Source: Campylobacteraceae bacterium (GTDB lineage Bacteria > Campylobacterota > Campylobacteria > Campylobacterales > Arcobacteraceae). Taken from it: a stretch of 32,758 bases of DNA. Shown here piece by piece: positions 4,867 through 21,040 of this stretch. A program made the translations under genes and the position numbers. The stretch covers positions 1 to 32,758 of the forward strand of contig JABXII010000034.1 of assembly GCA_013373175.1 (NCBI GenBank), given 5' to 3'. The notes beneath the pieces were generated by a model that ran no database searches, was not told the DNA's origin, and saw nothing but the letters and a program-made list of their open reading frames with translations. The stretch's first letter is position 1. Each line of letters starts with the position of its first letter.

Positions 4867-4881
4867 CTACTTTAACTTTTT
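4851..4881 (+). terminator. Intrinsic terminator shared by convergent genes
   Basis: A perfect 11-bp stem (AGTTAAAGTAG at 4851-4861 with CTACTTTAACT at 4867-4877) has a 5-base loop that contains the stop codon of the diguanylate cyclase, and a T-run follows (4877-4881). The convergent UbiD gene ends at 4880, so the same hairpin could also act on the other strand, though its T-tail there is poor. Confidence 0.8.
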
Positions 4882-6694
4882 ATAATTGATATTTTTTAAT
4901 AAACTCATCTGAAATATCTAAAATACCTCTTTGTTTTAGACTATCAAGAACTTCTCTTGAACAATCAACATCATCAGGCCATCTTCTTTTAAAATTATCA
5001 AATTCATTTTTATTTGTACCATCTAAACAAATAGTATTATTTTCAATATATAAATCTCTATTTGAATCAATATTATTTACAACTCTCCATAATAACATAT
5101 ATGGGTTATTTACGTCATTTTGATTTTTTGCATCTACTATTATAAGGATTTTAATATTTTCATAAAGAGGTTTTAAACTTTCAAAAACTTCTTTTTGATT
5201 TCTTTTTTTATCTACTGTAATAACTGCCAATGGATTTTTTGTATTTGTAAAATACTGTTTTAAATCCTTTACCTCATCAGTTATTTCTTGCATTTTTGCT
5301 AACAGTTCATCATCTTTTAACAATGTGATTCCAAGCTCTGATACTTCTTCACCTGTACAATCAAGTCCTAATTTTCCACCTACTGCAAATTTTGGACTTG
5401 AGTGATCAAGTGCATCAACTACTCCTCTTGATACTAATAATTCATCAATATCAATTCTATTTAATATATATTCTGTAATTGCTTCGTGTTCTGTTAACTC
5501 TGGAGCATCTTCATTTACAAAAATAGCATGTTTTACAAAACTCATCTGCCCTACTCCCCAAAACGCATGCATCATCTGAGAAGCATGTCCTGGATATAGT
5601 GTTTTTATTTTTGCAATAATTAGGTTATGGAATACTCCATTTTCAGGCATATAATAATCAATTAAATCAGGAGCAGTTGTTTTAAGTAATGGTAAGAAAA
5701 TTCTCTCCGTTGCATGCCCCATATATTTATCTTCTAATGGTGGTTTTCCAACTACTGTTGCTAAATATGTAGGTTCTTTTTTATGCGTAATTGCAGTTAC
5801 TTCCATAAATGGATACTCTTCTTCTAAAGTATAATATCCTGTGTGGTCCCCAAATGGTCCTTCTATTCTCATCTTACTTGTATCCACGAAACCTTCTATT
5901 ATAAAGTCATTGTCCCTTGGAACATAAATATCATTTGTGATTGATTTAACAAGTTGTGCATTTTTATTTTTTACAAAACCATAAAGCATAAGTTCAAAAA
6001 TACCAATAGGAAGTGGTGCTTGTCCACACCAAATATACATAGGGTCACCTCCTACTCCGATTGAAACTGGCATTTTCTTTCCAGCTTTTTTATACTCATG
6101 GAAAAAGTGATTTGAGTCTTTATGAATTTGCCAGTGCATCCCTAAGGTATTATCATCATATACTTGAAGTCTATACATACCTAAGTTTTTCATTTCACCA
6201 TTTAATGATGTAGTATAAACTTGTCCCATAGTAATAAAAGGACCACCATCTTGTTCCCAAGTAGTTAATACTGGTAAATCTGAAAGCTTAGCTTCATTTC
6301 CAAGTTTAATTACTTCTTGACACTCACCTTTTCCTTTATTCTTTTTAGGAATAGTATTTTTAAGAGCAAATAGCTTTCCAAAAGTTGAAAGTTTTTCACT
6401 TAATGTTGTAGGTGGCTTCATTTTTAATAAAGACTCTATCTCACTTCCAATTTTATCACCATCACCAATAAAAAGTTTTACTGCTTTTTCATTACAAAAT
6501 ACATTCATTAAAACTGGAATATCAAATTTTTTATTGTTTTTTCTATCTACTACATTTGTAAATAATAGTGCCTTTGAGTCTTCTTTTTTTACTTCTACAT
6601 ATGCAATGTGAGGTATCTCTAAGTAAATATCCAACTCATCGTCCATGATTCTTAATAAATCATTCTTTTTTAAAATTTCAATAGCTTCTTTCAT
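4880..6694 (-). CDS. ubiD: UbiD-family prenylated-FMN decarboxylase, probably for menaquinone synthesis
   Basis: A 604-residue UbiD-family decarboxylase. These enzymes use prenylated FMN to remove an aromatic carboxylate. Conserved family segments are visible: GMYRLQVYD (172-180), MHWQIHKD (186-193) and EGPFGDHTGYY (278-288), the last carrying an acidic residue of the active site. The other genes here (Wolinella-type fumarate reductase, complex I) point to menaquinone respiration, and Campylobacterota make menaquinone by the futalosine route, so this is most likely the late decarboxylase (MqnL-type) rather than a ubiquinone enzyme. That assignment is inference. The length is normal for the long UbiD proteins of this phylum. 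A GAGG ribosome site lies just upstream of the start. It is transcribed divergently from the C-S lyase gene. Confidence 0.85.
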   Translation of the reverse strand: MKEAIEILKKNDLLRIMDDELDIYLEIPHIAYVEVKKEDSKALLFTNVVDRKNNKKFDIPVLMNVFCNEKAVKLFIGDGDKIGSEIESLLKMKPPTTLSEKLSTFGKLFALKNTIPKKNKGKGECQEVIKLGNEAKLSDLPVLTTWEQDGGPFITMGQVYTTSLNGEMKNLGMYRLQVYDDNTLGMHWQIHKDSNHFFHEYKKAGKKMPVSIGVGGDPMYIWCGQAPLPIGIFELMLYGFVKNKNAQLVKSITNDIYVPRDNDFIIEGFVDTSKMRIEGPFGDHTGYYTLEEEYPFMEVTAITHKKEPTYLATVVGKPPLEDKYMGHATERIFLPLLKTTAPDLIDYYMPENGVFHNLIIAKIKTLYPGHASQMMHAFWGVGQMSFVKHAIFVNEDAPELTEHEAITEYILNRIDIDELLVSRGVVDALDHSSPKFAVGGKLGLDCTGEEVSELGITLLKDDELLAKMQEITDEVKDLKQYFTNTKNPLAVITVDKKRNQKEVFESLKPLYENIKILIIVDAKNQNDVNNPYMLLWRVVNNIDSNRDLYIENNTICLDGTNKNEFDNFKRRWPDDVDCSREVLDSLKQRGILDISDEFIKKYQL

Positions 6695-6729
6695 TTTTCC
6701 CTCATAGTAAACTAATTGTTAGCATAAGT

Positions 6730-6735
6730 TTTATA
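6730..6735 (-). promoter_or_regulatory. Possible -10 box for the UbiD-family gene
   Basis: Minus-strand TATAAA (in GATATAAAAC), about 36 bases before the UbiD start codon, in the 84-base divergent intergenic gap. There is no convincing -35 box. Confidence 0.35.
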
Positions 6736-6778
6736 TCATTTTATCATTAAAAAATAGTTTATAGTAGAGGTAATGTAT

Positions 6779-7927
6779 ATGTTTGATGAAATAGTAAATA
6801 GAAAAGGAACATCTTGCGCAAAATATGATGCGCTTGAAACTTACTTTGGATATTCTGATTTACAACCACTTTGGGTAGCTGATATGGATTTTAAAACACC
6901 TGATGTAGTAAATGATGCAATAATAAAAAGAGCCCAACATGGGATATATGGATATACAAAACCTACAGATAAAACATTTAATCTTGTTAAAGAGTGGATG
7001 AAAAAAAGACACTCTTGGGAAATTGATACTTCATGGATATCTTTTTGCAATGGAGTAGTTCCAGCATATAGTGCTGCAATTGAAGCTTTTACTGAAGAAG
7101 ATGATGAAATTATTGTTCAAACACCAGTTTATTTTCCTCTATTTAACTCAATAAAAAACAATAATAGAAAAGTAGTTAGAAATTCACTAAAAGAAGATAA
7201 TGGTTACTATACTATGGACTTAGAAGATTTAAAAAATAAAATCACTTCTAAATCTAAAATATTAGTTTTATGTTCACCGCACAATCCAGTAGGTAGAGTT
7301 TGGAGCAAAGAAGAGCTTGAAGAACTAGGAAAAATTTGTATTGAAAATAATCTTTTAATAATAAGTGATGAAATCCATGCTGATATAGTATTTAAAAAAT
7401 TTACATCTATTGCATCAATATCAAAAGAGATTTCAAATATTACTTTAACTTTAAATTCTCCTGGAAAAACTTTTAATATTGCTGGTTTAAATTGCGCATA
7501 CGCAATTTGTGAAAATAAAGATATAAAAGAGAAATTTGACAAAGAAATTACAAAAAGAGAATTAGCCTCTGTAAATGTATTTGGATTTACAGCATTAGAA
7601 GCTGCATATGAATTTGGTGAAGATTGGCTAAATGAGTTAAAAAAATATCTAAAAAATAATATTATATTTGCTAAAGAATATTTAGCAAAAAGTAACTCAA
7701 AAGTACAATTTTTGGAGCCAGAAGCAACATATTTGTTATGGTTTAATTTCAAAAATACAAAGCTAAAACATAAAGAAATAAAAAATATGTTATTCGAAAA
7801 ATCGAAAATTGCACTTAATGATGGAAGAAGTTTTGGTACAGAAGGAGACTCGTATTTTAGGCTAAACTGTGCACTTCCAAAATCGCAACTTGAAGAGGGA
7901 CTGGGTAAAATAGTTACATATTTTTAA
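6779..7927 (+). CDS. MalY/PatB-type PLP-dependent C-S beta-lyase
   Basis: A fold-type I aminotransferase-like enzyme of the MalY/PatB group, which cleaves cystathionine or other cysteine-S-conjugates to a thiol, pyruvate and ammonia. Numbered from the upstream ATG at 6773, family marks are WVADMDF (34-40), the NPVGR loop (171-175), SDEIH with the PLP-binding Asp (198-202), the Schiff-base motif SPGKTFNIAG with Lys232, and FRLNCA near the C-terminus. Length (about 382 residues) is typical. I prefer the ATG at 6779 because GAGG (6767-6770) is 8 bases before it but only 2 bases before the ATG at 6773. It could supply homocysteine for methionine synthesis, or be a general C-S lyase; the substrate cannot be decided here. 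Confidence 0.85.
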   Translation: MFDEIVNRKGTSCAKYDALETYFGYSDLQPLWVADMDFKTPDVVNDAIIKRAQHGIYGYTKPTDKTFNLVKEWMKKRHSWEIDTSWISFCNGVVPAYSAAIEAFTEEDDEIIVQTPVYFPLFNSIKNNNRKVVRNSLKEDNGYYTMDLEDLKNKITSKSKILVLCSPHNPVGRVWSKEELEELGKICIENNLLIISDEIHADIVFKKFTSIASISKEISNITLTLNSPGKTFNIAGLNCAYAICENKDIKEKFDKEITKRELASVNVFGFTALEAAYEFGEDWLNELKKYLKNNIIFAKEYLAKSNSKVQFLEPEATYLLWFNFKNTKLKHKEIKNMLFEKSKIALNDGRSFGTEGDSYFRLNCALPKSQLEEGLGKIVTYF

Positions 7928-8057: not shown

Positions 8058-8420
8058 ATGTCGACACATTTAGTTCTTTCATCTGTGATTTTTGTCTCTA
8101 TTGCTTTTATATTGGTAGGAGTTTTCTTACTAACAAAGTATTTAGGGCCAAACAATACACAAGATAAATTAAAAAACACAGTTTACGAAAGTGGTGTTTC
8201 CAACCCCGTTGGAACTACAAACATTAGGTTTTCTATTAAGTTTTACTTAGTAGCTATTGGATTCTTATTATTTGATGTAGAAATAATCTTTATGTTTCCT
8301 TGGGCTGTAAACTTAGTTGACCTTGGCTATGCAGGTTTAGTAAAAATGTTTATTTTTATTGGACTACTTTTTGCTGGTCTTATTTATATGTATAAGAAAA
8401 AGGCGTTATCATGGGATTAG
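8058..8420 (+). CDS. nuoA: NADH-quinone oxidoreductase subunit A
   Basis: A small membrane subunit (120 residues) with three predicted helices (about 8-28, 62-85, 92-112). The conserved loop YESGV (43-47) and the segment FLLFDVEIIFMFPWA (69-83) are the family signature; this loop lies at the junction between the peripheral and membrane arms and helps shape the quinone site. It is the first gene of the complex I operon and overlaps nuoB by 10 bases. Confidence 0.95.
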   Translation: MSTHLVLSSVIFVSIAFILVGVFLLTKYLGPNNTQDKLKNTVYESGVSNPVGTTNIRFSIKFYLVAIGFLLFDVEIIFMFPWAVNLVDLGYAGLVKMFIFIGLLFAGLIYMYKKKALSWD

Positions 8421-8926
8421 GAGCTGAAGCTAATTTAGGTGATTCTATAATCACTACTAAACTTGATGAAGCAGTTAACTGGGCTAGATCATATTCAATG
8501 TGGCCAATGGCATTTGGTACAGCATGTTGTGGTATTGAATTTATGTCTGTTGCTGCTTCTAAATATGATGTATCAAGATTTGGTGCAGAAGTTGTAAGAT
8601 TCTCGCCAAGACAGGCGGACTTACTTATTGTTGCAGGAACTATTTCATACAAACAAGCTCCTGTATTAAAGAAAATTTGGGATCAAATGTGTGAACCTAA
8701 ATGGGTTATTTCTATGGGAGCATGTGCATGTTCTGGTGGTTTTTATGATAACTATACAACATTACAAGGAATTGATGAAATTATTCCTGTACATGAATAT
8801 ATCTCAGGTTGTCCTCCAAGACCAGAAGCTGTTTTAGATGCAATTATGAATATTCAGAAAAAATCTTACGATGAATCTATTATCAAAGAAAGAGACCAAA
8901 ACTTCAAAGGGATTTTAGATGCTTAA
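8411..8926 (+). CDS. nuoB: NADH-quinone oxidoreductase subunit B
   Basis: The 171-residue subunit that holds cluster N2, the last iron-sulfur centre before quinone. The ligand motif is intact: tandem Cys39-Cys40 in FGTACCGIEFM, Cys105 in MGACACSGG and Cys134 in SGCPPRPEA. The position after the third ligand motif carries an extra Cys (C107). It acts in the peripheral arm beside NuoCD and NuoI. Its start is inside nuoA and its end overlaps nuoCD by 8 bases, so the three are translationally coupled. Confidence 0.96.
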   Translation: MGLGAEANLGDSIITTKLDEAVNWARSYSMWPMAFGTACCGIEFMSVAASKYDVSRFGAEVVRFSPRQADLLIVAGTISYKQAPVLKKIWDQMCEPKWVISMGACACSGGFYDNYTTLQGIDEIIPVHEYISGCPPRPEAVLDAIMNIQKKSYDESIIKERDQNFKGILDA

Positions 8927-10553
8927 AACAGATATGCTCATTGATGCAAAAGATATAAAATCAACAATTACTAGACTTAAAAATGAAGAAGATTATACAT
9001 TATTACTAGATGTAACTGCAGTTGATTATTTACAATATCCAGATGTTACTCCATCTAGATTTGCAGTTATCTATATTTTAAGAACTAGCGACTTCAAAAA
9101 ACAAATTTCTATTAAATCATATGTTGATGATAATACTTTAGAAGTTGATTCAATTACTGAACTTTATTATTCTGCTGATTGGGCAGAGAGAGAAACTTTT
9201 GACCAATATGGTATTAGATTCAAAGGTCATCATAATTTAAAAAGAGTATTAAACCACCATCAATTTGTGGGTCACCCTCTAAGAAAAGATTATGAAATCA
9301 CTAAAGGTCAAATTTGTACTGAAACTGAAGATTTAATGGATGAAATGCTTCCTCTATTAAAAAGAAAAGGTTATAGTGAAGCTGATATGGATGAGCTAAT
9401 GATGTTAAATGTTGGACCTTCTCACCCTGCTTCACATGGTACAATTAGAAACTTCGTTGCAATGGAAGGTGAAACAATTGCTGCTTGTGTAACTGAAGTT
9501 GGTTACCTACATAGAGGTTTTGAAAAATCTTGTGAAACTCATAACTACTCTCAAATTATTCCATATACTGATAGACTTAATTATTGTTCAGCAATTTTAA
9601 ATAACATTGGTTATTCAAAAGCTGTTGAAGATATGTTAGGAATTGATATTACTCCTAGAGCAAAAATGATTAGAGTGATTATTGGTGAGCTTTCAAGAAT
9701 TATTGACCACCTTGTATGTAATGCTGCAAATATGGTTGACCTTGGTGGACTTACTAGTTTATGGTATTTATTTGCTCCAAGGGATAAAGCCTATGATTTA
9801 TTTTCAAAATTAACAGGGGCTAGACTTACAAACTCTTATACAAGAATTGGTGGTTTAGAATATGATTTATATGATGGCTTTGAGCAAGACCTTTCTCAAG
9901 TGTTAAAAGATACTGAAAAAGCTATTGAAGATGCCTTATCTTTAATTTTACATAATAGAATCTACCATGATAGAACACAAGATGTAGGTGTAATTGATGC
10001 TGAGTTTGCTATTAGTGCTGGTATTACTGGTCCTAACTTAAGAGCTGCTGGTGTTGCATATGACATGAGAAAAGATAATCCATATTATGGATATGAAAAC
10101 TTTGACTTTGATGTTGTTGTAGGTTCACATGGTGATGTTTATGACAGAATGATGTGTAGATTTGAAGAGATGAAACAATCAATCAGAATCATTAGACAAG
10201 CAATGAAAGAGATTCCAGATGGACCACTTAATGTTGACCATCAAGGAATCATCTTACCTGACAAAAAAGATGTTTATGGAAATATCGAAGGATTAATGAA
10301 CCAATTTAAATTAACATTTGAAGGTATCAAAGTTCCTAAAGGTGAATATTATTCAGCAACAGAAGGTGGAAATGGTGAACTTGGATTCTATATTGTAAGT
10401 GATGGTTCAGGTACTCCATATAAAGTTAAATGTAGACCACCTTGTTTCTATTCTTTAGGTGCTTATTCAAAAATTGTAGAAGGTGATATGTTAGCTGATG
10501 CTGTTGTAACAATGGCTAGTATGAACTTTATTGCAGGGGAGTTTGATAGATAA
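8919..10553 (+). CDS. nuoCD: NADH-quinone oxidoreductase, fused subunits C and D
   Basis: A 544-residue fusion. The NuoC part (about 1-130) ends with the family motif GHPLRKDY (118-125). The NuoD part (about 155-544) begins with LNVGPSHPASHG and runs to the usual C-terminus GEFDR. The quinone-site pair is present: His173 and Tyr222 are 49 residues apart, the same spacing as His38 and Tyr87 in Thermus Nqo4. The linker is short (about 131-155). Campylobacter and Helicobacter have separate nuoC and nuoD genes as I recall, so the fusion, as in E. coli, is worth noting. AAGGGA precedes the start, and the stop overlaps nuoE (TAATG). Confidence 0.95.
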   Translation: MLKTDMLIDAKDIKSTITRLKNEEDYTLLLDVTAVDYLQYPDVTPSRFAVIYILRTSDFKKQISIKSYVDDNTLEVDSITELYYSADWAERETFDQYGIRFKGHHNLKRVLNHHQFVGHPLRKDYEITKGQICTETEDLMDEMLPLLKRKGYSEADMDELMMLNVGPSHPASHGTIRNFVAMEGETIAACVTEVGYLHRGFEKSCETHNYSQIIPYTDRLNYCSAILNNIGYSKAVEDMLGIDITPRAKMIRVIIGELSRIIDHLVCNAANMVDLGGLTSLWYLFAPRDKAYDLFSKLTGARLTNSYTRIGGLEYDLYDGFEQDLSQVLKDTEKAIEDALSLILHNRIYHDRTQDVGVIDAEFAISAGITGPNLRAAGVAYDMRKDNPYYGYENFDFDVVVGSHGDVYDRMMCRFEEMKQSIRIIRQAMKEIPDGPLNVDHQGIILPDKKDVYGNIEGLMNQFKLTFEGIKVPKGEYYSATEGGNGELGFYIVSDGSGTPYKVKCRPPCFYSLGAYSKIVEGDMLADAVVTMASMNFIAGEFDR

Positions 10554-11029
10554 TGGGTAAATTTAAATATACAGAAGCAAATGAAAAAGAGTTTGCAAGA
10601 ATTGCTAAAAAGTATCCAAAAGTTGATGCAATGATGTTACCTGCTTTATGGCTTGTTCAAGAACAAGAAGGTTGGGTAAGTCCAGATGCAATGGTTTTTG
10701 TAGCTGATAAGTTAGGAAAAACTCCAATTGAAGTTTATGAGTTCGCAACATTCTATACAATGTTCAACTTAAAACCAATTGGGACATATCATATTGAGTT
10801 ATGTAAAACTCTATCTTGTATGGTAATGGGTGCACCTGAACTTAAAAAGTTTGTAAAAGATACTTTAGGAATTGGTCCTGGTGAAACAAGTGAAGATGGA
10901 AAATTCCACTTCTCAGAAGTTGAGTGTCAAGGGGCTTGTGGTGGTGCACCAATGATTGCATTAAATAATCAGTACCACGAAAACATGTCTGTTGATAAAC
11001 TTAAAAAGATTATTGAGGAGTGTAAGTAA
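10553..11029 (+). CDS. nuoE: NADH-quinone oxidoreductase subunit E
   Basis: A 158-residue thioredoxin-fold subunit carrying the [2Fe-2S] cluster N1a. All four ligands are visible: Cys84 and Cys89 (CKTLSC), and Cys125 and Cys129 (CQGAC). With NuoF and NuoG it forms the electron-input module. Helicobacter pylori and Campylobacter jejuni lack recognisable NuoE and NuoF, so its presence separates this organism from them. It overlaps both neighbours by one base. Confidence 0.95.
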   Translation: MGKFKYTEANEKEFARIAKKYPKVDAMMLPALWLVQEQEGWVSPDAMVFVADKLGKTPIEVYEFATFYTMFNLKPIGTYHIELCKTLSCMVMGAPELKKFVKDTLGIGPGETSEDGKFHFSEVECQGACGGAPMIALNNQYHENMSVDKLKKIIEECK

Positions 11030-12288
11030 TGGCAGTTGAATTAGTAAAAATTGTTAGTCAAAACTTTGACATTCCTGATTCTCATAAACTTGAAGTAGCT
11101 TTAAAAAATGGAAGATATGAATCTATTGATAAAGCATTTTCTATGCAACCAGATGAAATTACAGAAGAAGTTTGTAAATCAGGTTTAAGAGGTAAAGGTG
11201 GTGGTGGTGCTGCTTGTGGACCAAAATGGAAACTTATGCCACCAATTGACGAAAGACCTAGATACTTAATCGTTAATGGAGATGAATCAGAACCTGGAAC
11301 ATTTAAAGATAGACAAATTTTCCAATATGACCCACATCTTTTAATTGAAGGAATTATTTGTTCTTCATATGCAATAGGTGCACATGATGCATATATTTAT
11401 ATCAGAGGTGAATATAAATGGTTTATTGATAGATTAAATGAAGCAATTGAAGAAGCATATGAAGCTGGAATCATTGGTGAAAAAGTAATGAATAAATATG
11501 ATTATAGAATTGACATTACTGTTCACAGAGGTGGAGGTGCTTATATTTGTGGTGAAAAATCTGCTTTAATTGAATCAATTGAAGGTAAAAGAGGACACCC
11601 AAGACTTAAACCACATGGTAAAGAGTGTGAATGGTTCTATGGAATGCCTGCAACTGTAAACAATGTTGAAACAATTTCATCTGTTCCTAATATTGTATTA
11701 AATGGATATGAGTCATATACAAAATGGGGAACAGAAAGAGCTCCAGGAACAATGCTATTTGCAATGAGTGGTCCTGTTAAAAAACCAGGAGTTTATGAAC
11801 TTCAATATGGTGAAAAGATGATTGATGTTATTAATGACATCGGTGGTGGAATGAAAGATGGAATGAAATTAAAAGCAGTAATTCCAGGAGGAGCTTCATG
11901 TCCTATTCTTACAGCCGAAGAAGTTGAGAAAGCAAATTTAGATTATGAATCTATGTGGGACATTGGTTCAACACTTGGTACTGGTGGAATGATGATTATT
12001 CCAGAAGGTACTTCAATGGTTGAAGTTGCTAAAAATTTAATTGAGTTTTATCACCATGAGTCTTGCGGACAATGTACTCCTTGTAGAGAAGGAACTGGTT
12101 GGATTGATAAAACTATTAAAAAGATTCTTGAAGGTAATGGTTCAGATGAAGATCTTGATACTATTATTGATGTATGTGGAACAATGAATGGAAAAACTAT
12201 TTGTGTATTTGCACCAGCAGTTAAAGATATTATCCAAAGCATTGTTGAAAAATATAGACATGAATTTGTTGAATACTTTAAAAGTTAA
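11029..12288 (+). CDS. nuoF: NADH-quinone oxidoreductase subunit F with altered nucleotide pocket
   Basis: A 419-residue flavoprotein subunit. Cluster N3 ligands are intact (Cys346, Cys349, Cys352 in CGQCTPC, plus Cys392), and the FMN-side motif GDESEPGTFKDR (84-95) is kept. The dinucleotide pocket is not standard. The glycine loop usually read as GRGGAGF is GKGGGGA, so the adenine-stacking Phe (E. coli F67, Thermus F70) is Ala61. GEET becomes GEKS, placing Lys177 at the position of E. coli E183, which excludes NADPH. The PPFPA loop becomes PHGKE, replacing F203 with Gly197. Alignment to E. coli NuoF, from memory, is collinear with a constant offset of 6. The gene is therefore a real NuoF, but its donor may be NADPH or another carrier. 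gltA follows 20 bases later. Confidence 0.93.
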   Translation: MAVELVKIVSQNFDIPDSHKLEVALKNGRYESIDKAFSMQPDEITEEVCKSGLRGKGGGGAACGPKWKLMPPIDERPRYLIVNGDESEPGTFKDRQIFQYDPHLLIEGIICSSYAIGAHDAYIYIRGEYKWFIDRLNEAIEEAYEAGIIGEKVMNKYDYRIDITVHRGGGAYICGEKSALIESIEGKRGHPRLKPHGKECEWFYGMPATVNNVETISSVPNIVLNGYESYTKWGTERAPGTMLFAMSGPVKKPGVYELQYGEKMIDVINDIGGGMKDGMKLKAVIPGGASCPILTAEEVEKANLDYESMWDIGSTLGTGGMMIIPEGTSMVEVAKNLIEFYHHESCGQCTPCREGTGWIDKTIKKILEGNGSDEDLDTIIDVCGTMNGKTICVFAPAVKDIIQSIVEKYRHEFVEYFKS

Positions 12289-12308: not shown

Positions 12309-13595
12309 ATGGCAAAGAATACTTTTACACTAACGGATAATAGAAATGGCAAGTCTTATGAGTATGATGTTTTAAGTGGTACAAGAGGACCAGATGTATT
12401 AGATATTAGAACTTTCTATAAAGATTCTGGAATGTTCACTTATGACCCAGGTTACACTTCAACTGCATCTTGTGAATCAAAAATCACATTCATTGATGGT
12501 GAAAACTCTGAACTAAGATATAGAGGTTATGACATTAGAGATTTAGCTGGTAAAAAATCTTACCTTGATGTTTGTCACCTTTTAATGATGGGAAAACTTC
12601 CAACTGAAGAAGAGTCAAAAGATTTTGATTTAGAAATTAGACATAGATCTTTCTTAAATGAAGGAATCATTAGACTATTTGATGCATTACCTGATGGAGC
12701 TCATCCAATGGCAACTATGGGTGCTGCAACAATGGCATTATCTGCATTCTATAAAGATCACTTACATTTAGAAGATGAAGAACAATTCAAAACAATGAGA
12801 AGAAGGATTTTAGCTAAGATGCCTACAATTGCGGCTATGGCTTATAGAAATTCAATTGGTACGCCACTAATCTATCCAGATGTAAATAAATATTTCACTG
12901 AAAACTTCTTATATATGTTAAGAGCTTATCCAAATGGAAGCATGAAATACTTAGGTGATGGTAAGAATGATGAAATCAAACAAGTTGAAGTTGATGCATT
13001 AGATGCTATTTTAACTTTACATGCTGATCATGAACAAAATGCTTCTACTACAACTGTTAGAAATGTTGGTTCAACTGAAGCTCACCCTTATGTTGCTATC
13101 GCTTCTGGTATCTCTGCATTATGGGGTTCTGCACATGGTGGAGCAAATGAAAAAGTTATGGATCAATTAAAATTAATTGGTGATGTTAAAAATGTACCTA
13201 CTTATATTGCTAAAGCAAAAGACAAAAATGATCCATTTAGATTAATGGGATTCGGACACAGAGTTTATAAAAATAGAGACCCTAGAGCTGAAACACTTAA
13301 ACTATTACAAGATCAATTAAGAGAAGAATTAAACTTAGATTCTAAGTTATTAGACGTAGCTGCAGCGGTTGAAGAAGCAGCATTAAGCGATGATTACTTC
13401 AAAGATAGAGGATTATATCCAAATATTGACTTCTACTCAGGTGTTATTTTAACTGCACTTAAGATTCCAGTAGAGATGTTTACTCCTATTTTTGTTATCG
13501 GAAGAATTCCAGGATGGATTTCTCAATGGTCTGAATTAAAGCAAGATCCAACTGCTAAAATTGCTAGACCAAGACAACTATATACAGGTAAGTAA
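12309..13595 (+). CDS. gltA: Citrate synthase, inside the nuo operon
   Basis: A 428-residue type II (Gram-negative, hexameric-class) citrate synthase that condenses acetyl-CoA and oxaloacetate to citrate. The catalytic triad is visible: His276 in WGSAHGGAN, His317 in MGFGHRVYK and Asp374 in NIDFYSG. The family N-terminal beta domain is present (about 1-60). It sits between nuoF and nuoG on the same strand, with gaps of 20 and 29 bases and its own ribosome sites (AGGAG 9 bases before the ATG), and no terminator on either side. This implies co-transcription with complex I. An ATG at 12302 in another frame would encode only 12 residues and is too close to the AGGAG to be the start. Confidence 0.97.
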   Translation: MAKNTFTLTDNRNGKSYEYDVLSGTRGPDVLDIRTFYKDSGMFTYDPGYTSTASCESKITFIDGENSELRYRGYDIRDLAGKKSYLDVCHLLMMGKLPTEEESKDFDLEIRHRSFLNEGIIRLFDALPDGAHPMATMGAATMALSAFYKDHLHLEDEEQFKTMRRRILAKMPTIAAMAYRNSIGTPLIYPDVNKYFTENFLYMLRAYPNGSMKYLGDGKNDEIKQVEVDALDAILTLHADHEQNASTTTVRNVGSTEAHPYVAIASGISALWGSAHGGANEKVMDQLKLIGDVKNVPTYIAKAKDKNDPFRLMGFGHRVYKNRDPRAETLKLLQDQLREELNLDSKLLDVAAAVEEAALSDDYFKDRGLYPNIDFYSGVILTALKIPVEMFTPIFVIGRIPGWISQWSELKQDPTAKIARPRQLYTGK

Positions 13596-13624: not shown

Positions 13625-15061
13625 ATGAGTGAATTAGTTAAATTTTCAGTAAATGGGGAAGAGCATGAAGCCAAAAAGGGTAGTCTTTTAATAGATACTC
13701 TCTTAGATCGTGACATACATATTCCTCATTTTTGTTACCATCAAGCCCTAGGGAAAGATGGTAACTGTAGAATGTGTATGGTAGAAATTGAAGGTCAAAA
13801 AAGACCTCAAATTGCTTGTGACACGCCAGTTAAAGAAGGAATGATTGTAAGAACAAAAGGCGAAAATATTGAAAAAGTTAGAAGAGATATTTTAGAACTT
13901 GAACTTATTAATCACCCAATTGACTGTCCTACATGTGACCAAGCAGGAGAGTGTAAACTTCAAGATTATTACATGGAGTCTGGATTTTATGAATCAAGAG
14001 TAAATGTAAATCAAAAAGTTACTGCTAGAAAAAGAGTTGATTTAGGTTCTAATGTAATGTTAGACCAAGAAAGATGTGTACTTTGTACAAGATGTGTAAG
14101 ATTCTGTTCAGAAATCACTGGTACAAACGAACTTGGTGTTATTTCAAGAGCTGATCACTCTGTAATTGGTACATTCCCTGGTAAACCACTTGATAATCCA
14201 TATGCAATGAATGTTGTTGATATTTGTCCTGTTGGAGCACTTACTTCTAAAGACTTTAGATTCAAACAAAGAGTTTGGTTCATGGAATCTTTTGATGCTA
14301 TTTGTAATGGTTGTTCAATGGGATGTAATATTCATGTTGACCACAGAAAAGAAAAATATAAAGATGACCAAATCTTTAGATTTAGACCAAGAGTAAATAG
14401 AGATGTAAATGGTTGGTTTATTTGTGATGAAGGTAGACTTTCATATAAAAATGAAGAAGAAGATAGATTTACAACTCCATTAGTAGACTCAACAGAAACA
14501 CAGTTTAGTAATACAATCACTAAAGTATATAAAACATTAACAGAGAAAAAAGATATTCTTTTTGTATTAGATCCATCTTTATCTTTAGAAGAGATGCAAA
14601 ATACAATTAAATTGGCAGAAGCTGTAAAAGGTGAAATCACTGGTTATTCACCACAATACATTGATGAAAGTTTTGCAGACGACTATTTAAGAAAAAGTGA
14701 TAAAAGTCCAAACAGAGCATCTTTTAAAGAGTTAAACATTAATGAAACAGAAGAAGATTTTAAAAATAAAATTGCAAAAGCTAAAACTGTAATTATATTA
14801 AATAATAACTACTTCGACCAAAACCTAGAGATTTTAGAGGGTAAAACTGTTATTTCTTGCTTCTCACATAACTGTTTAACAATTTCAAAATCTGATGTAG
14901 CTATCCCTATTTCATCATTCTATGAAAAAAGTGGTACTTACATTAACTTTGAAGGTAAAAAACAAAAAGTTATTTCAAAACTTAAAAAAGAAAAACCAAT
15001 GGAATCAGTATCTTCAATTATTGAGCATATTAAATCTATGGTTGAAAAAGGTAGCCTATGA
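13625..15061 (+). CDS. nuoG: NADH-quinone oxidoreductase subunit G, compact form
   Basis: The iron-sulfur subunit of the input module, 478 residues against about 800-900 in most bacteria. All cluster ligands up to the molybdopterin-type domain are present: N1b (Cys37, 48, 51, 65), N5 (His97, Cys101, 104, 110), N4 (Cys151, 154, 157, 201) and an N7-like set (Cys227, 230, 234, 267). After residue 285 the large molybdopterin-like domain is reduced to about 190 residues, yet the conserved tail motif EKSGTYINFEGKKQ (434-447) remains. The gene has a clean ribosome site (AGGAG) and a 4-base overlap with nuoH, so this is a streamlined protein rather than a frameshifted one. Confidence 0.92.
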   Translation: MSELVKFSVNGEEHEAKKGSLLIDTLLDRDIHIPHFCYHQALGKDGNCRMCMVEIEGQKRPQIACDTPVKEGMIVRTKGENIEKVRRDILELELINHPIDCPTCDQAGECKLQDYYMESGFYESRVNVNQKVTARKRVDLGSNVMLDQERCVLCTRCVRFCSEITGTNELGVISRADHSVIGTFPGKPLDNPYAMNVVDICPVGALTSKDFRFKQRVWFMESFDAICNGCSMGCNIHVDHRKEKYKDDQIFRFRPRVNRDVNGWFICDEGRLSYKNEEEDRFTTPLVDSTETQFSNTITKVYKTLTEKKDILFVLDPSLSLEEMQNTIKLAEAVKGEITGYSPQYIDESFADDYLRKSDKSPNRASFKELNINETEEDFKNKIAKAKTVIILNNNYFDQNLEILEGKTVISCFSHNCLTISKSDVAIPISSFYEKSGTYINFEGKKQKVISKLKKEKPMESVSSIIEHIKSMVEKGSL

Positions 15062-16341
15062 GTACAGCTGCAATAGTAATTATTATAGTAAACATTCTTC
15101 TTGCTAAGATTCTTTCAGTTGGTACTACACCAATTATGGTTTGGTGGGAAAGAAGAGTTGCTGGTTTTATTCAAGATAGAACTGGACCAAACAGATGTGA
15201 TATTGGTGGAATTAGACTTGGTGGTTTAATTCAAGCAATCGCAGATATGTTAAAACTTGTATTTAAAGAAGACTTTACTCCTGCACATATTAAAGAGAAG
15301 TTTCTTTATACAATTGCACCAGCTTTAGTATTTATCTGTTCATTTTTAACAATGGCAGTTATTCCTTTTGCTGATAACTTAGTTATCGATGGTGAAAGTT
15401 TTATGATGCAAGCAATTCCTACTCAACTTGGAATTATGTGGTTCTTAGCATTTGCAGGTTTATCTGTATTTGGTATTATTTTAGGTGGATATTCATCTCA
15501 AAATAAATATGGTTTATTAGGTGGAATTAGAGCTTCTGCACAAGTTATTTCTTATGAAGCAGCAATGGGCTTATCTATTATCTCTATTCTTTTAACATAT
15601 GGTTCAATCAACTTAAATGATATGGTACAAGCTCAAGGTGGAACATTCTTTGGTGTTATTCCATCATGGGGTATTTTTATGCAACCACTTGCAGCTTTAA
15701 TTTTTATTGTTACTGCATTTGCTGAAACAAACAGAACACCTTTTGATATCGCTGAAGGTGAATCTGAGATTGTTGCTGGTTATCACACTGAGTACTCTGC
15801 AATGAGATTTGGTCTTTTCCAAGTTGGTGAATATGCTGCAATGAGTGCATCATCTGCAATTATTGTAACTCTATTCTTAGGTGGATATCACATTCCATGG
15901 ATGGATACAGCAACAATTCAAAATAACATCAACTATGTAATTTTAGCTATCGTAATTTTATTACCAATAAAAGCATATCTATTTGGTAAATGGATGAATA
16001 AAAACTACGATTGGTTAGATGCTAATGATAAAAGACATAGAGAAAAGAATATTTTAATTAGAGGATTCTGGTTAATTGCAATTATTATCTCTGCTGTTTT
16101 AATTATGTTCTTAGTTACAGGACTTGGTGAAAATGGTGTAAATATTGCAACTGCAGTTATCCAAATTGGTACATTTGTAGTTAAATTCTTACTTATGAAC
16201 TTAGTATTTATCTGGATTAGATGGACACTATTAAGATTTAGATATGACCAATTACAAATGTTAGGATGGAAAGTTCTTATTCCATTAGCGATATTAAATA
16301 TTGTAATAACAGCAACATTTATTGTTGTGACAGGAAGTTAA
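15058..16341 (+). CDS. nuoH: NADH-quinone oxidoreductase subunit H, enlarged
   Basis: The membrane subunit that, with NuoB and NuoD, forms the quinone chamber. Conserved parts are WERRVAGFIQDRTGPNR (30-46), AETNRTPFDIAEGESE (222-237) with the acidic residues of the E-channel, and RFRYDQLQMLGWK (393-405). At 427 residues it is about 100 longer than the usual 325-335. The extra part lies between GGYHIPWM (275-282) and the late helix near 375-390 and holds two hydrophobic segments (about 291-310 and 335-355) joined by a charged stretch. It starts within the nuoG stop (ATGA). Confidence 0.95.
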   Translation: MSTAAIVIIIVNILLAKILSVGTTPIMVWWERRVAGFIQDRTGPNRCDIGGIRLGGLIQAIADMLKLVFKEDFTPAHIKEKFLYTIAPALVFICSFLTMAVIPFADNLVIDGESFMMQAIPTQLGIMWFLAFAGLSVFGIILGGYSSQNKYGLLGGIRASAQVISYEAAMGLSIISILLTYGSINLNDMVQAQGGTFFGVIPSWGIFMQPLAALIFIVTAFAETNRTPFDIAEGESEIVAGYHTEYSAMRFGLFQVGEYAAMSASSAIIVTLFLGGYHIPWMDTATIQNNINYVILAIVILLPIKAYLFGKWMNKNYDWLDANDKRHREKNILIRGFWLIAIIISAVLIMFLVTGLGENGVNIATAVIQIGTFVVKFLLMNLVFIWIRWTLLRFRYDQLQMLGWKVLIPLAILNIVITATFIVVTGS

Positions 16342-16342
16342 T

Positions 16343-16849
16343 ATGGGAATTAAAATTGTAGAAAGACACGGAAAGTCTCTAAAAGATAAATTATACATCC
16401 CAGCTATTATGGGTGGTATGAAGACTACTTTTAGACACTTTAAAGAAAATTTGAGCGATGTTTCAAATCTTAAAACAATGCAGTACCCTGAAGTTCAACC
16501 TGATGATATCACTGATAGATACAGAGGAGTTCATAGGCTAACTAAATGGGCTGACGAAAGTGAAAAGTGCGTTGCTTGTTATATGTGTGCTACTGCTTGT
16601 CCTGCTCAATGTATTTTTATTGATGCAGAAGAAAGATTTGATGGTAAAGCTGAAAAAAGACCAAAAGAATTCAAAATTGACCTTCTAGAGTGTGTATACT
16701 GTGGATACTGTGTAGAAGCTTGTCCTTGTGATGCTATTAGAATGGATACTGGAATCTTTAGTTTTACAGGTGATAAAAGAGAAGATTTCGTTGTTGATAA
16801 AAATTACCTAATGAGCAATGAAAGATCAAAGGATTTTGATGATGAGTGA
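16343..16849 (+). CDS. nuoI: NADH-quinone oxidoreductase subunit I
   Basis: A 168-residue ferredoxin-like subunit with two [4Fe-4S] clusters (N6a and N6b). Ligand sets are Cys76, 79, 82 with Cys127, and Cys117, 120, 123 with Cys86, in the two motifs CVACYMCATAC and CVYCGYCVEAC. It passes electrons from NuoG towards N2 in NuoB. An N-terminal amphipathic region of about 50 residues anchors it to the membrane arm in the family. A ribosome site (AGGAAG) lies just ahead. Its last bases overlap the start of nuoJ. Confidence 0.96.
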   Translation: MGIKIVERHGKSLKDKLYIPAIMGGMKTTFRHFKENLSDVSNLKTMQYPEVQPDDITDRYRGVHRLTKWADESEKCVACYMCATACPAQCIFIDAEERFDGKAEKRPKEFKIDLLECVYCGYCVEACPCDAIRMDTGIFSFTGDKREDFVVDKNYLMSNERSKDFDDE

Positions 16850-17360
16850 TTTAATATTTGTAGCACTTAGTATTTTTGCTGTTGTTGGTGCTCTAATGAT
16901 GCTATTCTTTAGAAAACCAATGTACTCAGCACTTGGTCTATTAGTATCAATTTTGGCTGTAGCTGGTCTGTTTGCACTGTTAAATGCAACTTTCCTTTTT
17001 ATGGTACAAATTATTGTTTATGCTGGTGCAATTATGACATTAATTTTATTCTTACTTATGTTTCTTAACATTAAAGATGAACATCTTCCAAAAGAACCTA
17101 AGAAGTATCTTTTAATTGGAATTGGTGCAGCAATAATGATTCCTTTTAATGTTGTTATTTTAAAAGCAGTATCAAAGCTTCCAGAAGCTGATATGAATAT
17201 TGTTGCAGGTAGTACTTTTGGTGACATTAAACCAGTTGGTGCTTTATTATATAATGATTGGATTATAGCATTCGAATTAATTTCGATTCTTCTATTAGTT
17301 GCGCTTGTTGGTTCAATTGTTTTAGCAAAAAGAAAAAAATCTACTAAGGAGAATGCATGA
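16842..17360 (+). CDS. nuoJ: NADH-quinone oxidoreductase subunit J
   Basis: A membrane subunit of about 172 residues with five predicted helices. The family helix FMVQIIVYAGAIMTLILFLLM, broken by the pi-bulge segment VYAGAIM, is present. I chose the ATG at 16842 (MSDLIFVALS) because AAAGGA lies 8 bases before it; the ATG at 16839 is almost as good, and the longer reading from 16818 would add seven polar residues before the first helix and lacks a ribosome site. It overlaps nuoI by 8 bases and nuoK by 4. Confidence 0.92.
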   Translation: MSDLIFVALSIFAVVGALMMLFFRKPMYSALGLLVSILAVAGLFALLNATFLFMVQIIVYAGAIMTLILFLLMFLNIKDEHLPKEPKKYLLIGIGAAIMIPFNVVILKAVSKLPEADMNIVAGSTFGDIKPVGALLYNDWIIAFELISILLLVALVGSIVLAKRKKSTKENA

Positions 17361-17671
17361 TTAGTTTAACATCTTATGCTTTTGTCTCTATGATTCTTTT
17401 TTCTATTGGTGTTATAGGTGTAATCGCTAGAAGAAATATATTTGTTATATATATGTCAATAGAACTTATGTTAAATGGAATTGCACTTTTCCTTATAACA
17501 TTTGCAAGATATCATTTTAATATGGACCCACAAATTATTACAGTTATGGTTATCTCAATTGCAGCAGCAGAAGCAGCAATTTTCTTATCTGTAATCATTT
17601 TATTATTTAGAACTAAAAAATCTCTAGATACTGATATCTTTACAACACTAACACAAGGAGAGAAGTCATGA
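17357..17671 (+). CDS. nuoK: NADH-quinone oxidoreductase subunit K
   Basis: A 104-residue MrpC-like membrane subunit with three helices (about 4-24, 28-50, 60-84). The two intramembrane Glu residues of the family are visible, one in MSIELMLNG and one in AAAEAAIFLSV. It links the quinone module to the antiporter-like subunits. AAGGAG lies just upstream; the gene overlaps nuoJ (ATGA) and nuoL. Confidence 0.95.
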   Translation: MISLTSYAFVSMILFSIGVIGVIARRNIFVIYMSIELMLNGIALFLITFARYHFNMDPQIITVMVISIAAAEAAIFLSVIILLFRTKKSLDTDIFTTLTQGEKS

Positions 17672-19557
17672 TGGATACTTCACTGTTAGTTTGGATTATT
17701 ATTGCTCCACTTTTAGGTGCGATATTAAATGGTGGATTATATTTTTACCACGTAAAAAGAAAACCAGTATCTGAAACACTATTTTCTGTAATTGGTACAG
17801 GTACACCACTTATTGCATTTTTAATTACACTAAGTCTATTCTTAGACATGGTAGATGGTGGAGTAACATTTAAACAACAACTATTTACTTGGGTAAATAT
17901 TGGTGATTTAAATATTACTATGGCATTCTTAGGTGATAACCTAGCTATCTTTATGTCAATGTTTGTAACTTTTGTTGGATGGTTAATTCACATCTATGCA
18001 ATTGGTTATATGACAGGTGATAATGGTTTTGGTAAATTCTTTGCTTACTTCAACCTTTTCTTAGCATCGATGTTAATTTTAGTACTTGCAGATAACCCAG
18101 TTATTCTTTTCATTGGATGGGAAGGTGTTGGAGTTTGTTCATACTTACTAATTGCATTCTATTATGGTGATAAAGAAAATGTTATCGCTGGTAATAAAGC
18201 ATTTATTGCAAATAGAGTTGGTGACTTTGGTTTTCTTTTAGGTATTGTTACACTATTCTTTGCACTAGGTCAAGTTGATTTAAGCTTCTCTTCACTTGAA
18301 GCTAATATTTCAAATGCTTCAACTGGTTTATTAGCCTTATCAGGATTCTTACTATTTGTTGGTGCTATGGGTAAATCAGCTCAGGTTCCTTTATATGTAT
18401 GGCTTCCAGATGCAATGGCAGGACCGACTCCAATTTCAGCACTTATTCACGCAGCTACAATGGTAACAGCTGGTGTATATATGGTTGCAAGATTTCATTT
18501 CTTATACGCAAGTGTTGAAGAAATTGGTATCTTTATTGCTTATATTGGTGCATTTTCTGCATTATTTGCAGCAGTTATCGCAACAAGACAACAAGATATT
18601 AAAAAGATACTTGCATACTCAACTATGTCTCAATTAGGATATATGTTTATTGCTGTAGGACTTGGGTTTTATAGTTCAGGTTTATTTCACGTATTTACAC
18701 ATGCATTCTTTAAAGCAATGTTATTCATGGGTGCTGGTGGTATAATTATTGCTCTACACCATGAACAAAATATCTTTAAAATTGCGCAACATAGAGCACA
18801 ACTTCCAATTATTAAATTTACTTTCTTAATTGGTGTTATTGCAATTTCAGGTATTCCACCATTTTCAGGTTTCTTCTCTAAAGATGCTATTTTAGCATCA
18901 GCTTTCCAAGAGGGACAATATTTAATCTGGGGAATTGGAATGTTTACAGCATTCTTAACAGCATTCTATATGTTTAGACTTTATTTTATTGTATTCGTTG
19001 CACCAAATAAAGAGACTGTGCCATATGTTTATACATCAAAAACAATTACTTTCCCACTTATGATTTTAGCAGTTGGAGCGGTATTTGCAGGGTTCTTAAA
19101 CTTCCCAGCTATTTTTGGTGGTTCTAATTTAGTTGACAATTGGTTAGCACAAACTAACTCTATAAAAATTCATATGTCTCATTCAACTGAGTACATATTA
19201 ATGGCTGCATCTATTTTAGTGGCAGCAGCAGGTATTTTTGTTGCATATAAGAAATACGCAAACTTTGATGTTTACAAACCAGAAGATGAAAAAGGTATTA
19301 TTGCTAACAAATTCTATGTAGATGAATTCTATGACATAGTATTTGTTCAATTCTCTAAAAAAATCTCTTCATTTATTGATAAAATCTTAGATACTAAAAT
19401 TATTGATGGATTTATCATGTCAACTTGTGAACAGTTTGTTGAGTTTGGTAAAAAAGTTGCAACTATTCAAAATGCTAATGTAAGATTTTATGCTGCGTTC
19501 ATGCTTGTAGGTATGAGTGCTGTGTTTATCTATTTATATATTTCTTTAGGATTGTAA
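17668..19557 (+). CDS. nuoL: NADH-quinone oxidoreductase subunit L
   Basis: The 629-residue distal antiporter-like proton-pumping subunit, of usual length. The key charged residues are present: Glu152 in IGWEGVGVCSYLL and Lys236 in GAMGKSAQVPLYVWLPDAM, and the segment AGPTPISALIHAATMV is conserved. The C-terminal third has the long amphipathic stretch and terminal helix (about 610-628) that in the family run along the membrane arm. AGGAG lies 7 bases ahead of the first of two adjacent ATG codons. Confidence 0.96.
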   Translation: MMDTSLLVWIIIAPLLGAILNGGLYFYHVKRKPVSETLFSVIGTGTPLIAFLITLSLFLDMVDGGVTFKQQLFTWVNIGDLNITMAFLGDNLAIFMSMFVTFVGWLIHIYAIGYMTGDNGFGKFFAYFNLFLASMLILVLADNPVILFIGWEGVGVCSYLLIAFYYGDKENVIAGNKAFIANRVGDFGFLLGIVTLFFALGQVDLSFSSLEANISNASTGLLALSGFLLFVGAMGKSAQVPLYVWLPDAMAGPTPISALIHAATMVTAGVYMVARFHFLYASVEEIGIFIAYIGAFSALFAAVIATRQQDIKKILAYSTMSQLGYMFIAVGLGFYSSGLFHVFTHAFFKAMLFMGAGGIIIALHHEQNIFKIAQHRAQLPIIKFTFLIGVIAISGIPPFSGFFSKDAILASAFQEGQYLIWGIGMFTAFLTAFYMFRLYFIVFVAPNKETVPYVYTSKTITFPLMILAVGAVFAGFLNFPAIFGGSNLVDNWLAQTNSIKIHMSHSTEYILMAASILVAAAGIFVAYKKYANFDVYKPEDEKGIIANKFYVDEFYDIVFVQFSKKISSFIDKILDTKIIDGFIMSTCEQFVEFGKKVATIQNANVRFYAAFMLVGMSAVFIYLYISLGL

Positions 19558-19558
19558 T

Positions 19559-21040
19559 ATGAGTGCAGATATTTTATCGTTTATTATATTTTTACCAGCA
19601 GTAGTAGCATTTGGTTTAATGATTACTACTAAGCATGTAGAAACAGTTAGAAACATTGCATTTTTAACAACAACAGTTATCTTAGCACTTGTATTAAAAC
19701 TTTATATTGAGTTTGAACCAAGTGCAGGTATGCAGTTCGTTACAAATGTTCCATGGATTTCATCTTATGGTATTAACTACTACATTGGTGTTGATGGTTT
19801 CTCTTTAACTATTTTAATGATGATTGCTATTTTAATCCCTACAGCATATCTTCTTTTATGGGAAGGTAGAACTAAAGGTTACTGGATTAATATGTTATTA
19901 GTGCAAGCTGGTGTTACAGGTTCACTTTTAGCATTAGATGTAATTTTATTCTACTTCTTCTGGGAAGTTATGTTATTACCAGTATTCTTAATGATTGGTA
20001 TTTATGGATTTGGAGATAAAGTATTCACAACTATTAAAGTAACAGTATATACAATGCTTGGTTCACTTTTAATGTTTGTTGCTATGCTTTATTTAGGAGT
20101 TACATATCACGCTGAGTTTGGAACTTGGTCATTCCAATATGATAGTTTAACTCAAATTACATCATTATCATATAACGAAAAGATTTGGTTATTTTTAGCA
20201 TTCCTTTCTGCGTTTGCTATTAAGATTCCTATTTTCCCATTACATACATGGATTATGGAAACATATAAAAATGCTCCAACTGGTGCAGTATTCTTATTAT
20301 CATCAATCATGGCAAAACTAGGTGTTTATGCAATCGTTAGATTCTTAATTCCTATTTTCCCAGAAGTTTATGTTGAGTTCTCTTCATGGTTTGTATTTAT
20401 TGGATTATTTGGTCTTGTTTACTTTGGTATTGCTGCACTTATGCAAGATGACATTAAAAGAATGTTTGCTTATTCTTCTGCATCGCACTTAAGTTTCATT
20501 GCAGCAGGTATCTTCTCATTAAATGAATTTGGTATCAATGGAGCTTTATATTTAATTATTGCTCACGCAATTGCAACAGGTGCATTATTCTTACTTGTTG
20601 GAATTATTCATGATGAAACAGGATATAAAACAATCAAAGATTTAGGTGGATTAGCAAAACAATCTCCAATCTTTACTACAATTTTTGCAATTATGTTATT
20701 TGCAAATGTAGGACTTCCTGGAACTAATGGTTTCGTATCAGAATTATTAATTATCTTTGGTATTTATGAGTTCAATCATACACTAGGATATATTTCAGCT
20801 CTTACTGTTATTATTGGTGCTTCATATATGTTATGGATGTTCCAAAGAGCAATATTACAAGATAGAGAAGGTGAAGCTCTTAAATTTAGAGATTTAAAAA
20901 TCAAAGAGATTGTTGGTTTAGCTCCATGGGTTATTCTTGTATTCTTAATGGGTATTTACCCAGATATTTTCATTGATAAGTTTGAGCCAACTGTAACTCA
21001 CTACTTAAATGACATTTTACATATTGGAGCAGCAAAATGA
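19559..21040 (+). CDS. nuoM: NADH-quinone oxidoreductase subunit M
   Basis: A 493-residue antiporter-like proton-pumping subunit with about 14 helices. Conserved charged residues are Glu136 in [17 protein letters not shown], Lys222 in [13 protein letters not shown] and Lys253 in [10 protein letters not shown]. Length is normal. It starts one base after the nuoL stop and overlaps nuoN by four bases. Confidence 0.96.

Follow-up and report, generated by a model that had tools for sequence, protein, structure and literature searches.

Textbooks present complex I as an enzyme for NADH. In the E. coli NuoF subunit, F67 is the Phe on which the adenine of the nucleotide stacks and E183 is the residue that disfavours or excludes NADPH through its 2'-phosphate, and two pocket segments form the adenosine half of the site, according to structural work on the Thermus and E. 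coli enzymes. A 2011 study by Morina et al. is said to have changed NuoF E183 in E. coli complex I, after which the enzyme used NADPH. Campylobacter and Helicobacter, of the same phylum as the DNA analysed here, also have a complex I with an altered input module: it works without NuoEF, whose genes were replaced, and takes flavodoxin or ferredoxin as donor, according to the relevant parts of PMC6682613 and PMC4178425. The NuoEF-bearing enzymes of the phylum are called canonical, E. coli-like or NAD+-interacting in passages of PMC6682613, PMC4794192 and PMC4585668, the word being canonical for Arcobacter butzleri in the first and NAD+-interacting for Sulfurospirillum multivorans in the last.

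The window, by which we mean the whole stretch of 32,758 nucleotides that was analysed, contains a nuo operon running from nuoA (8058) to nuoN (22545). The complex I gene set is complete, conserved and of the 14-gene type, and the order A-B-CD-E-F is the one seen in canonical systems. The window genome (2.76 Mb, 38 contigs, completeness 99.98%) has its nearest NuoF relatives among the Arcobacteraceae in the NuoF tree. The features used below are as follows.

8058 to 8420, plus strand: nuoA, by open reading frame and family search
8411 to 8926, plus strand: nuoB, by open reading frame and family search
8919 to 10553, plus strand: nuoCD fusion, by open reading frame and family search
10553 to 11029, plus strand: nuoE, with N1a ligands Cys84, Cys89, Cys125 and Cys129
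11029 to 12288, plus strand: nuoF (419 aa), the FMN/N3 subunit with a rewritten adenosine half-site
11188 to 11226, plus strand: glycine-rich segment R54-K66 (RGKGGGGAACGPK), with K56, G59 and A61 for E. coli R62, A65 and F67
11281 to 11310, plus strand: conserved segment D85-D94 (DESEPGTFKD) of the nicotinamide/FMN side, from the alignment
11557 to 11559, plus strand: Lys177 codon AAA, replacing E. coli E183 (Thermus E185)
11611 to 11643, plus strand: rewritten loop P195-G205 (PHGKECEWFYG), replacing PPFPATSGAWG
12309 to 13595, plus strand: citrate synthase gene in the nuoF/nuoG interval, by open reading frame and family search
13625 to 15061, plus strand: nuoG, short (478 aa), by open reading frame and family search
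15058 to 22545, plus strand: nuoH to nuoN, with nuoH and nuoI found by family search

The names of nuoJ, K, L, M and N are putative, assigned by gene order. A citrate synthase gene within the nuo operon was common to those Arcobacteraceae-family loci that had enough flank, and one locus titled Sulfurovum (L059) has no such gene inside the operon. In the 478-aa NuoG, motifs for N1b, N5 and N4 were matched and the N7 pattern used gave no match; cysteines 227, 230, 234 and 267 are present in a 2-3-32 spacing. Upstream of nuoA, at 4880 to 7927, lie a gene on the minus strand that we take to be UbiD-like and one on the plus strand that is presumably a MalY/PatB-like aminotransferase, an arrangement that recurs in many loci of the family.

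The window NuoF was matched by PF01512 (E 1.1e-42), PF10589 (E 2.2e-28) and PF22461 (over its cut-off) in profile searches, so that the Complex1_51K, SLBB and NADH_4Fe-4S domains are all present. It scored 504.2 bits against TIGR01959, the NuoF equivalog model, below the cut-off of 558.65, and 440.4 against NF010120, which is also named NuoF, above the cut-off of 389. The N3 ligands are Cys346, Cys349, Cys352 and Cys392 (12064 to 12204, plus strand), so that this set is complete in NuoF, as is the N1a set in NuoE. Since both nuoE and nuoF are present, the complex is not of the NuoEF-less (epsilon) type known from Campylobacter and Helicobacter. No second, canonical NuoF was found in the window genome, where the single PF01512 match is NuoF itself. 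An AlphaFold2 model built on a 20-row alignment reached a pLDDT of 83.2 and a pTM of 0.85, and its best Foldseek match (8e9h_F, TM 0.93) confirms the NuoF fold only; at residues 57-59, 169-172 and 175-200 the pLDDT is below 50, so the model carries no side-chain information on the new pocket.

We aligned 91 non-redundant Campylobacterota NuoF sequences, referred to below as the clade, with 17 canonical NuoF and 23 HoxF/FdsB-like paralogues, taking E. coli NuoF from NC_000913 as the reference. The 91 rows exclude the window itself (L001, L002), two partial loci (L061, L062), identical duplicates, the loci L131-L133, which have no NuoF front part, and the E. coli locus L134, retained as row Ecoli. 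The canonical set is small, and two of its 17 rows nearly duplicate others (E. coli and a Klebsiella plasmid copy; three Flavobacterium). A preliminary description of this DNA had placed the window NuoF at a constant offset of 6 from E. coli NuoF, and the offset holds in the alignments. The replacements it had read from that offset were confirmed against NC_000913: Ala61 stands for F67, Lys177 for E183 and Gly197 for F203, and PPFPA (E. coli 201-205) has become Pro195-His-Gly-Lys-Glu199.

The pattern is broader than one genome. Position 183 is Lys in 91/91 clade rows and Glu in 17/17 canonical rows, whereas the paralogues carry Ala (16), Glu (5), Thr (1) or Gly (1) and never Lys. Position 67 is Phe in all 17 canonical rows and Tyr or Phe in 23/23 paralogues, and in the clade it is Ala (82), Gly (8) or Ser (1). 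The NADH-specific signature of F67 plus E183 was thus found in none of the 91 clade rows and in 17/17 canonical ones. A further 16 NuoF of the Arcobacteraceae family all have GEKSAL, together with Ala replacing Phe. A sequencing error or an oddity of one genome was ruled out by Lys in 91/91 and 16/16 sequences. Over the whole of NuoF, seven differences are fixed (at least 90% in the clade and at least 85% in the canonical set): Y29A, R62K, A65G, F67A, E183K, A205E and A404V. Five of them fall in the two pocket segments of the adenosine half-site, and positions 183, 65, 62, 205, 67 and 208 stand at the top of a ranking by divergence and conservation.

The clade thus resembles the canonical NADH-dependent subunits (NuoF, Nqo1 or NDUFV1 of E. 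coli, Thermus, Aquifex and Paracoccus) in fold, in FMN and N3 ligands and in the residues of the nicotinamide side, and differs from them in R62K, A65G, F67A, E183K, A205E, the PPFPA loop and the TIGR01959 score. The diaphorase subunits of HoxF/FdsB/HydB type, including Campylobacterota paralogues of about 545 aa, are homologous FMN/Fe-S subunits, but they keep an aromatic residue at 67, have PPH, PPL or PPF loops and form a separate branch of the tree. The engineered E. coli enzyme of Morina et al. was reportedly changed at the same residue; the clade change, unlike it, is natural, is to Lys, is fixed across the sampled NuoF of a phylum, and is accompanied by a new loop and by the disappearance of the stacking Phe.

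The loop itself changed from KPPFPATSGAWG to KPHGKECEWFYG with its length unchanged. Glu199 is invariant in 91/91 clade rows, position 201 carries an acid (E 82, D 8, X 1), and position 202 is aromatic in 91/91 rows (W 80, F 10, Y 1), three features that the preliminary description had left out. Position 204 is F (64), Y (26) or W (1), and position 198 is K (80), P (6) or R (5). Because the replacement residues are themselves strictly conserved, the loop is replaced and not degenerate, and selection has maintained one particular new site. To say that NADH binding was lost therefore goes too far, as the loop was exchanged for another that is equally strictly kept. The same conserved residues were taken to rule out a decaying or non-functional NADH site in a complex heading towards NuoEF loss. 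Full-length clade NuoF is found in a minority of genomes (81/397) and many Campylobacterota lack it, as such decay might predict; since the replacement residues do not vary between families and the loci seen have an intact operon, we regard decay as highly improbable. No graded series towards NuoEF loss, of the kind implied by the earlier suggestion of an evolutionary intermediate, was seen among the NuoF examined.

The other half of the site is unchanged. In E. coli numbering, K72, W73, N90, D92, E93, E95, D101, Y178 and E182 are the same in 91/91 clade rows, and the window NuoF has the four N3 cysteines, which bears out the statement that the FMN-side and N3 residues are intact. In Aquifex, E95, D103, E97 and E184, whose numbers are one or two above those of E. 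coli, hold the nicotinamide end of NADH and, via waters, part of its pyrophosphate side, according to the relevant part of PMC6560083. The substrate site of the clade thus appears to be canonical in one half (nicotinamide/FMN) and new in the other (adenosine).

Such a site might still use NADH, with the adenosine half rebuilt in place: Glu199 and Glu201 would take the ribose hydroxyls, Trp202 (or Phe203 or Tyr204) would stack on the adenine, and Lys177 would be salt-bridged to the loop. The conservation just described (Glu199 in 91/91 rows, an acid at 201 in 90/91 with one X, an aromatic at 202 in 91/91) fits this reading, as do the unchanged nicotinamide side and the more acidic loop. The mean loop charge over E. 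coli positions 200-212 (K/R minus D/E) is -0.36 in the clade versus +1.53 in the canonical set, which argues against a simple basic pocket for a phosphate and would be compatible with an NADH site that was rebuilt. An invariant Lys at what is presumably the NADPH-excluding residue of E. coli is, on the other side, not what an NADH site needs, and we consider continued use of NADH possible but unlikely. The preliminary description had allowed that the missing Phe and Glu might be supplied from shifted positions; the conserved Glu199 and the aromatic residue at 202 are candidates for this, in a region where the model pLDDT is below 50. The published accounts assume NADH or NAD+ for these NuoEF, as far as the pertinent passages of PMC6682613 and PMC4585668 go.

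A third class of donor was weighed as well. NuoEF might have given up nucleotide binding and be reduced at FMN or N1a by a one-electron carrier, either flavodoxin or ferredoxin. The alignment shows the adenosine site lost, the window genome encodes POR_N proteins of about 1198 and 379 aa, and a complex I fed in this way has been described for Campylobacter jejuni and suggested for Sulfurospirillum, in the parts of PMC6682613, PMC4585668 and PMC4178425 concerned. These donors look less likely here because the nicotinamide-side residues are invariant in 91/91 rows (E93, E95, D101, Y178 and E182 among them), which a protein donor would not need, and because the Campylobacterota that use them have the NuoEF genes replaced altogether. 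In Sulfurospirillum multivorans, moreover, a NuoEF-type complex I is reported beside one of the ferredoxin/flavodoxin type (PMC4585668, in the part on these enzymes), which suggests that the two have different donors. We therefore judge direct reduction by flavodoxin or ferredoxin quite improbable.

To see what else could oxidize NAD(P)H, we searched the genomes for other sinks. No NqrF match was found in the window genome and none of the 61 family genomes had one over the cut-off; PntB was likewise found in none of the 61, and the soluble transhydrogenase SthA was over the cut-off in 0/14 genomes. For a 455-aa protein of the window genome the SthA model gave 274 bits, short of the cut-off of 465, and an unusual transhydrogenase may thus be present. 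With E. coli Ndh as query, the window genome gave no full-length NDH-2-like match (best E 3e-4, residues 171-317), while 35/61 family genomes had matches of full-length type at E<=1e-19; for one of these (L220) the nearest solved structures are NDH-2-like, and the rest of the 35 may include relatives that are not NDH-2. RnfC carries PF01512, and no RnfC/HoxF-like protein was found in the window genome, whose sole match to that family is NuoF. The searches thus detected no NDH-2, Na+-NQR, Rnf or known transhydrogenase in this genome and left complex I as its one identified respiratory sink for NAD(P)H.

The sources of reducing equivalents point to NADPH. The window genome has aceE and, about 5 kb from it, an Lpd gene (L155:5391-6755, plus strand, contig C37; 603-aa frame) that has DVVVRGPQ in place of the E. 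coli Lpd sequence DVVEMFDQ, with E205V and M206R where the second Rossmann strand ends. M206R is reportedly among the four extra changes of the engineered NADP-using E. coli Lpd. According to the relevant parts of PMC8406311, E. coli Lpd becomes able to use NADP+ with E205A or E205G, and the best of the engineered NADP enzymes combines E205V with four further changes. Lpd of this R-type is accordingly predicted to be NADP-type. Among 40 family genomes with an aceE-type Lpd, 26 have the R-type and 14 the E-type; in 39 of them the gene lies within about 6 kb of aceE on the same contig, and in G402 it is on another contig. The isocitrate dehydrogenase of the window genome belongs to the monomeric, NADP-dependent family, which was over the cut-off in 14/14 genomes tested, and the lone Iso_dh match in each of these, a protein of 355-398 aa, is probably LeuB by size and score. 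The POR_N proteins of about 1198 and 379 aa in the window genome are of POR and OOR type by size, and because the larger is also present, pyruvate may take a ferredoxin-type route as well.

Six genomes with genus code g2 (G008, G106, G127, G187, G237 and G276), whose NuoF group with named Aliarcobacter and Arcobacter rows, have an R-type Lpd, and their only strong POR_N matches are proteins of about 380 aa, by inference OOR. No full-length NDH-2-like, NqrF or PntB match and no SthA match over the cut-off was found in these six, so complex I would be the only respiratory exit found there for the NADPH of a pyruvate dehydrogenase with predicted NADP-type Lpd. A. butzleri is described in parts of PMC2147049 and PMC4584990 as having pyruvate dehydrogenase, lacking pyruvate:ferredoxin oxidoreductase and growing on lactate and pyruvate.

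On this evidence the complex most likely oxidizes NADPH, possibly along with some NADH, and reduces the quinone pool, a reading that we favour with moderate confidence. It is supported by E183K in 91/91 and 16/16 sequences, by loss of F67 in the same rows, by the nicotinamide side kept in 91/91, and by the absence of another sink among those searched together with the predicted NADP-type sources. If the enzyme used NADH, by comparison, the NADPH that NADP-type Lpd and isocitrate dehydrogenase are expected to produce would be left without a sink in genomes that lack a transhydrogenase. Of the two donors proposed in the preliminary description, NADPH thus gains from the genome evidence on sinks, Lpd and isocitrate dehydrogenase, and the non-nucleotide donor recedes. 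In the mechanism we propose, Lys177 would be the counter-charge for the 2'-phosphate of NADPH, and Glu199 and the aromatic residue at 202 would hold the ribose or the adenine in a new geometry. NADPH would be supplied by pyruvate dehydrogenase with its NADP-type Lpd and by monomeric NADP isocitrate dehydrogenase, and complex I would return NADP+.

Several observations count against the NADPH reading. Three genomes with an NAD-type Lpd and no NDH-2-like match (G241, G397 and G402), all with Lys in NuoF, seem to need complex I for their NADH, having no other respiratory exit for it, which favours a site that still uses NADH; the remaining 11/14 E-type genomes have an NDH-2-like match, as do 13/26 R-type genomes. 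Absence of such a match in 13/26 R-type versus 3/14 E-type genomes falls short of significance (Fisher p = 0.10), and phylogenetically independent pairs gave no decision either way; this missing association weakens the reading. It is also weakened by the 455-aa match to the SthA model, which leaves room for an unusual transhydrogenase, and by K-type NuoF outside the family in which Lpd was examined. Use of both nucleotides as donors could reconcile the three genomes.

Full-length clade NuoF (at least 53% identity) was found in 81 of 397 Campylobacterota genomes, spread over several family codes of one order. All 68 of the 81 sequences that were inspected have Lys at 183, the other 13 (nine from f10, four from f3) lying outside the inspected set. 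Among the matches listed, the other 22 full-length proteins were paralogues of 34-39% identity (frames of 449-583 aa), 18 of which were fetched, and no canonical NuoF was seen among the 68 clade and 18 paralogue sequences inspected. In a quick maximum-likelihood tree whose support values are SH-aLRT alone, with the clade thinned at 93% identity to 62 rows and a number of long branches flagged, the clade forms one side of a branch (SH-aLRT 100) and groups with canonical NuoF (95), apart from the paralogues, which indicates a single origin inside canonical NuoF. Because the clade is one branch found in several family codes, the change was evidently made once, before those families parted, or spread among them. 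One locus, L108 (G293, family code f2), has its NuoF inside the rows of f3 genus g24, with a loop segment of 51 residues identical to that of L105, L107 and L109; a transfer between families is possible.

More broadly, and only tentatively, we suggest that the NuoEF-bearing complex I of Campylobacterota may be a dedicated NADPH:quinone oxidoreductase whose nucleotide half-site arose a single time, at the group's base, with NADPH as the main respiratory currency of many Arcobacteraceae. These would combine NADP-type pyruvate and isocitrate dehydrogenases with ferredoxin-type oxidation of 2-oxoglutarate. The literature searched, in the parts available, describes neither these NuoF substitutions nor a Campylobacterota complex I that is fed by NADPH, and on the basis of that search the pocket substitutions are unreported. 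If the suggestion is true, the complex would be a native NADPH-driven proton pump, its pocket rebuilt once, then kept and paired with NADP-type dehydrogenases upstream, and would offer a test bed for discrimination between NADH and NADPH. It would also bear on the metabolic schemes published for A. butzleri and S. multivorans (in the sections concerned of PMC6682613 and PMC4585668).

Other arrangements of nuo genes were observed in the phylum. In f10 (L080, L082-L087 and L089-L091), the genes next after nuoA-B-CD-E-F are nuoN, M and L, which lie on the other strand, and no match to nuoG was found in the vicinity, evidently a rearranged complex I cluster. In L131 (1926-3935, minus strand), L132 and L133, from genomes without clade NuoF, the nuo cluster includes a protein of 670-685 aa with a NuoF-type N3 domain in front, behind which the L131 protein has Fer4_20 and pyridine nucleotide-disulphide oxidoreductase domains. 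This protein appears to be another way of feeding complex I.
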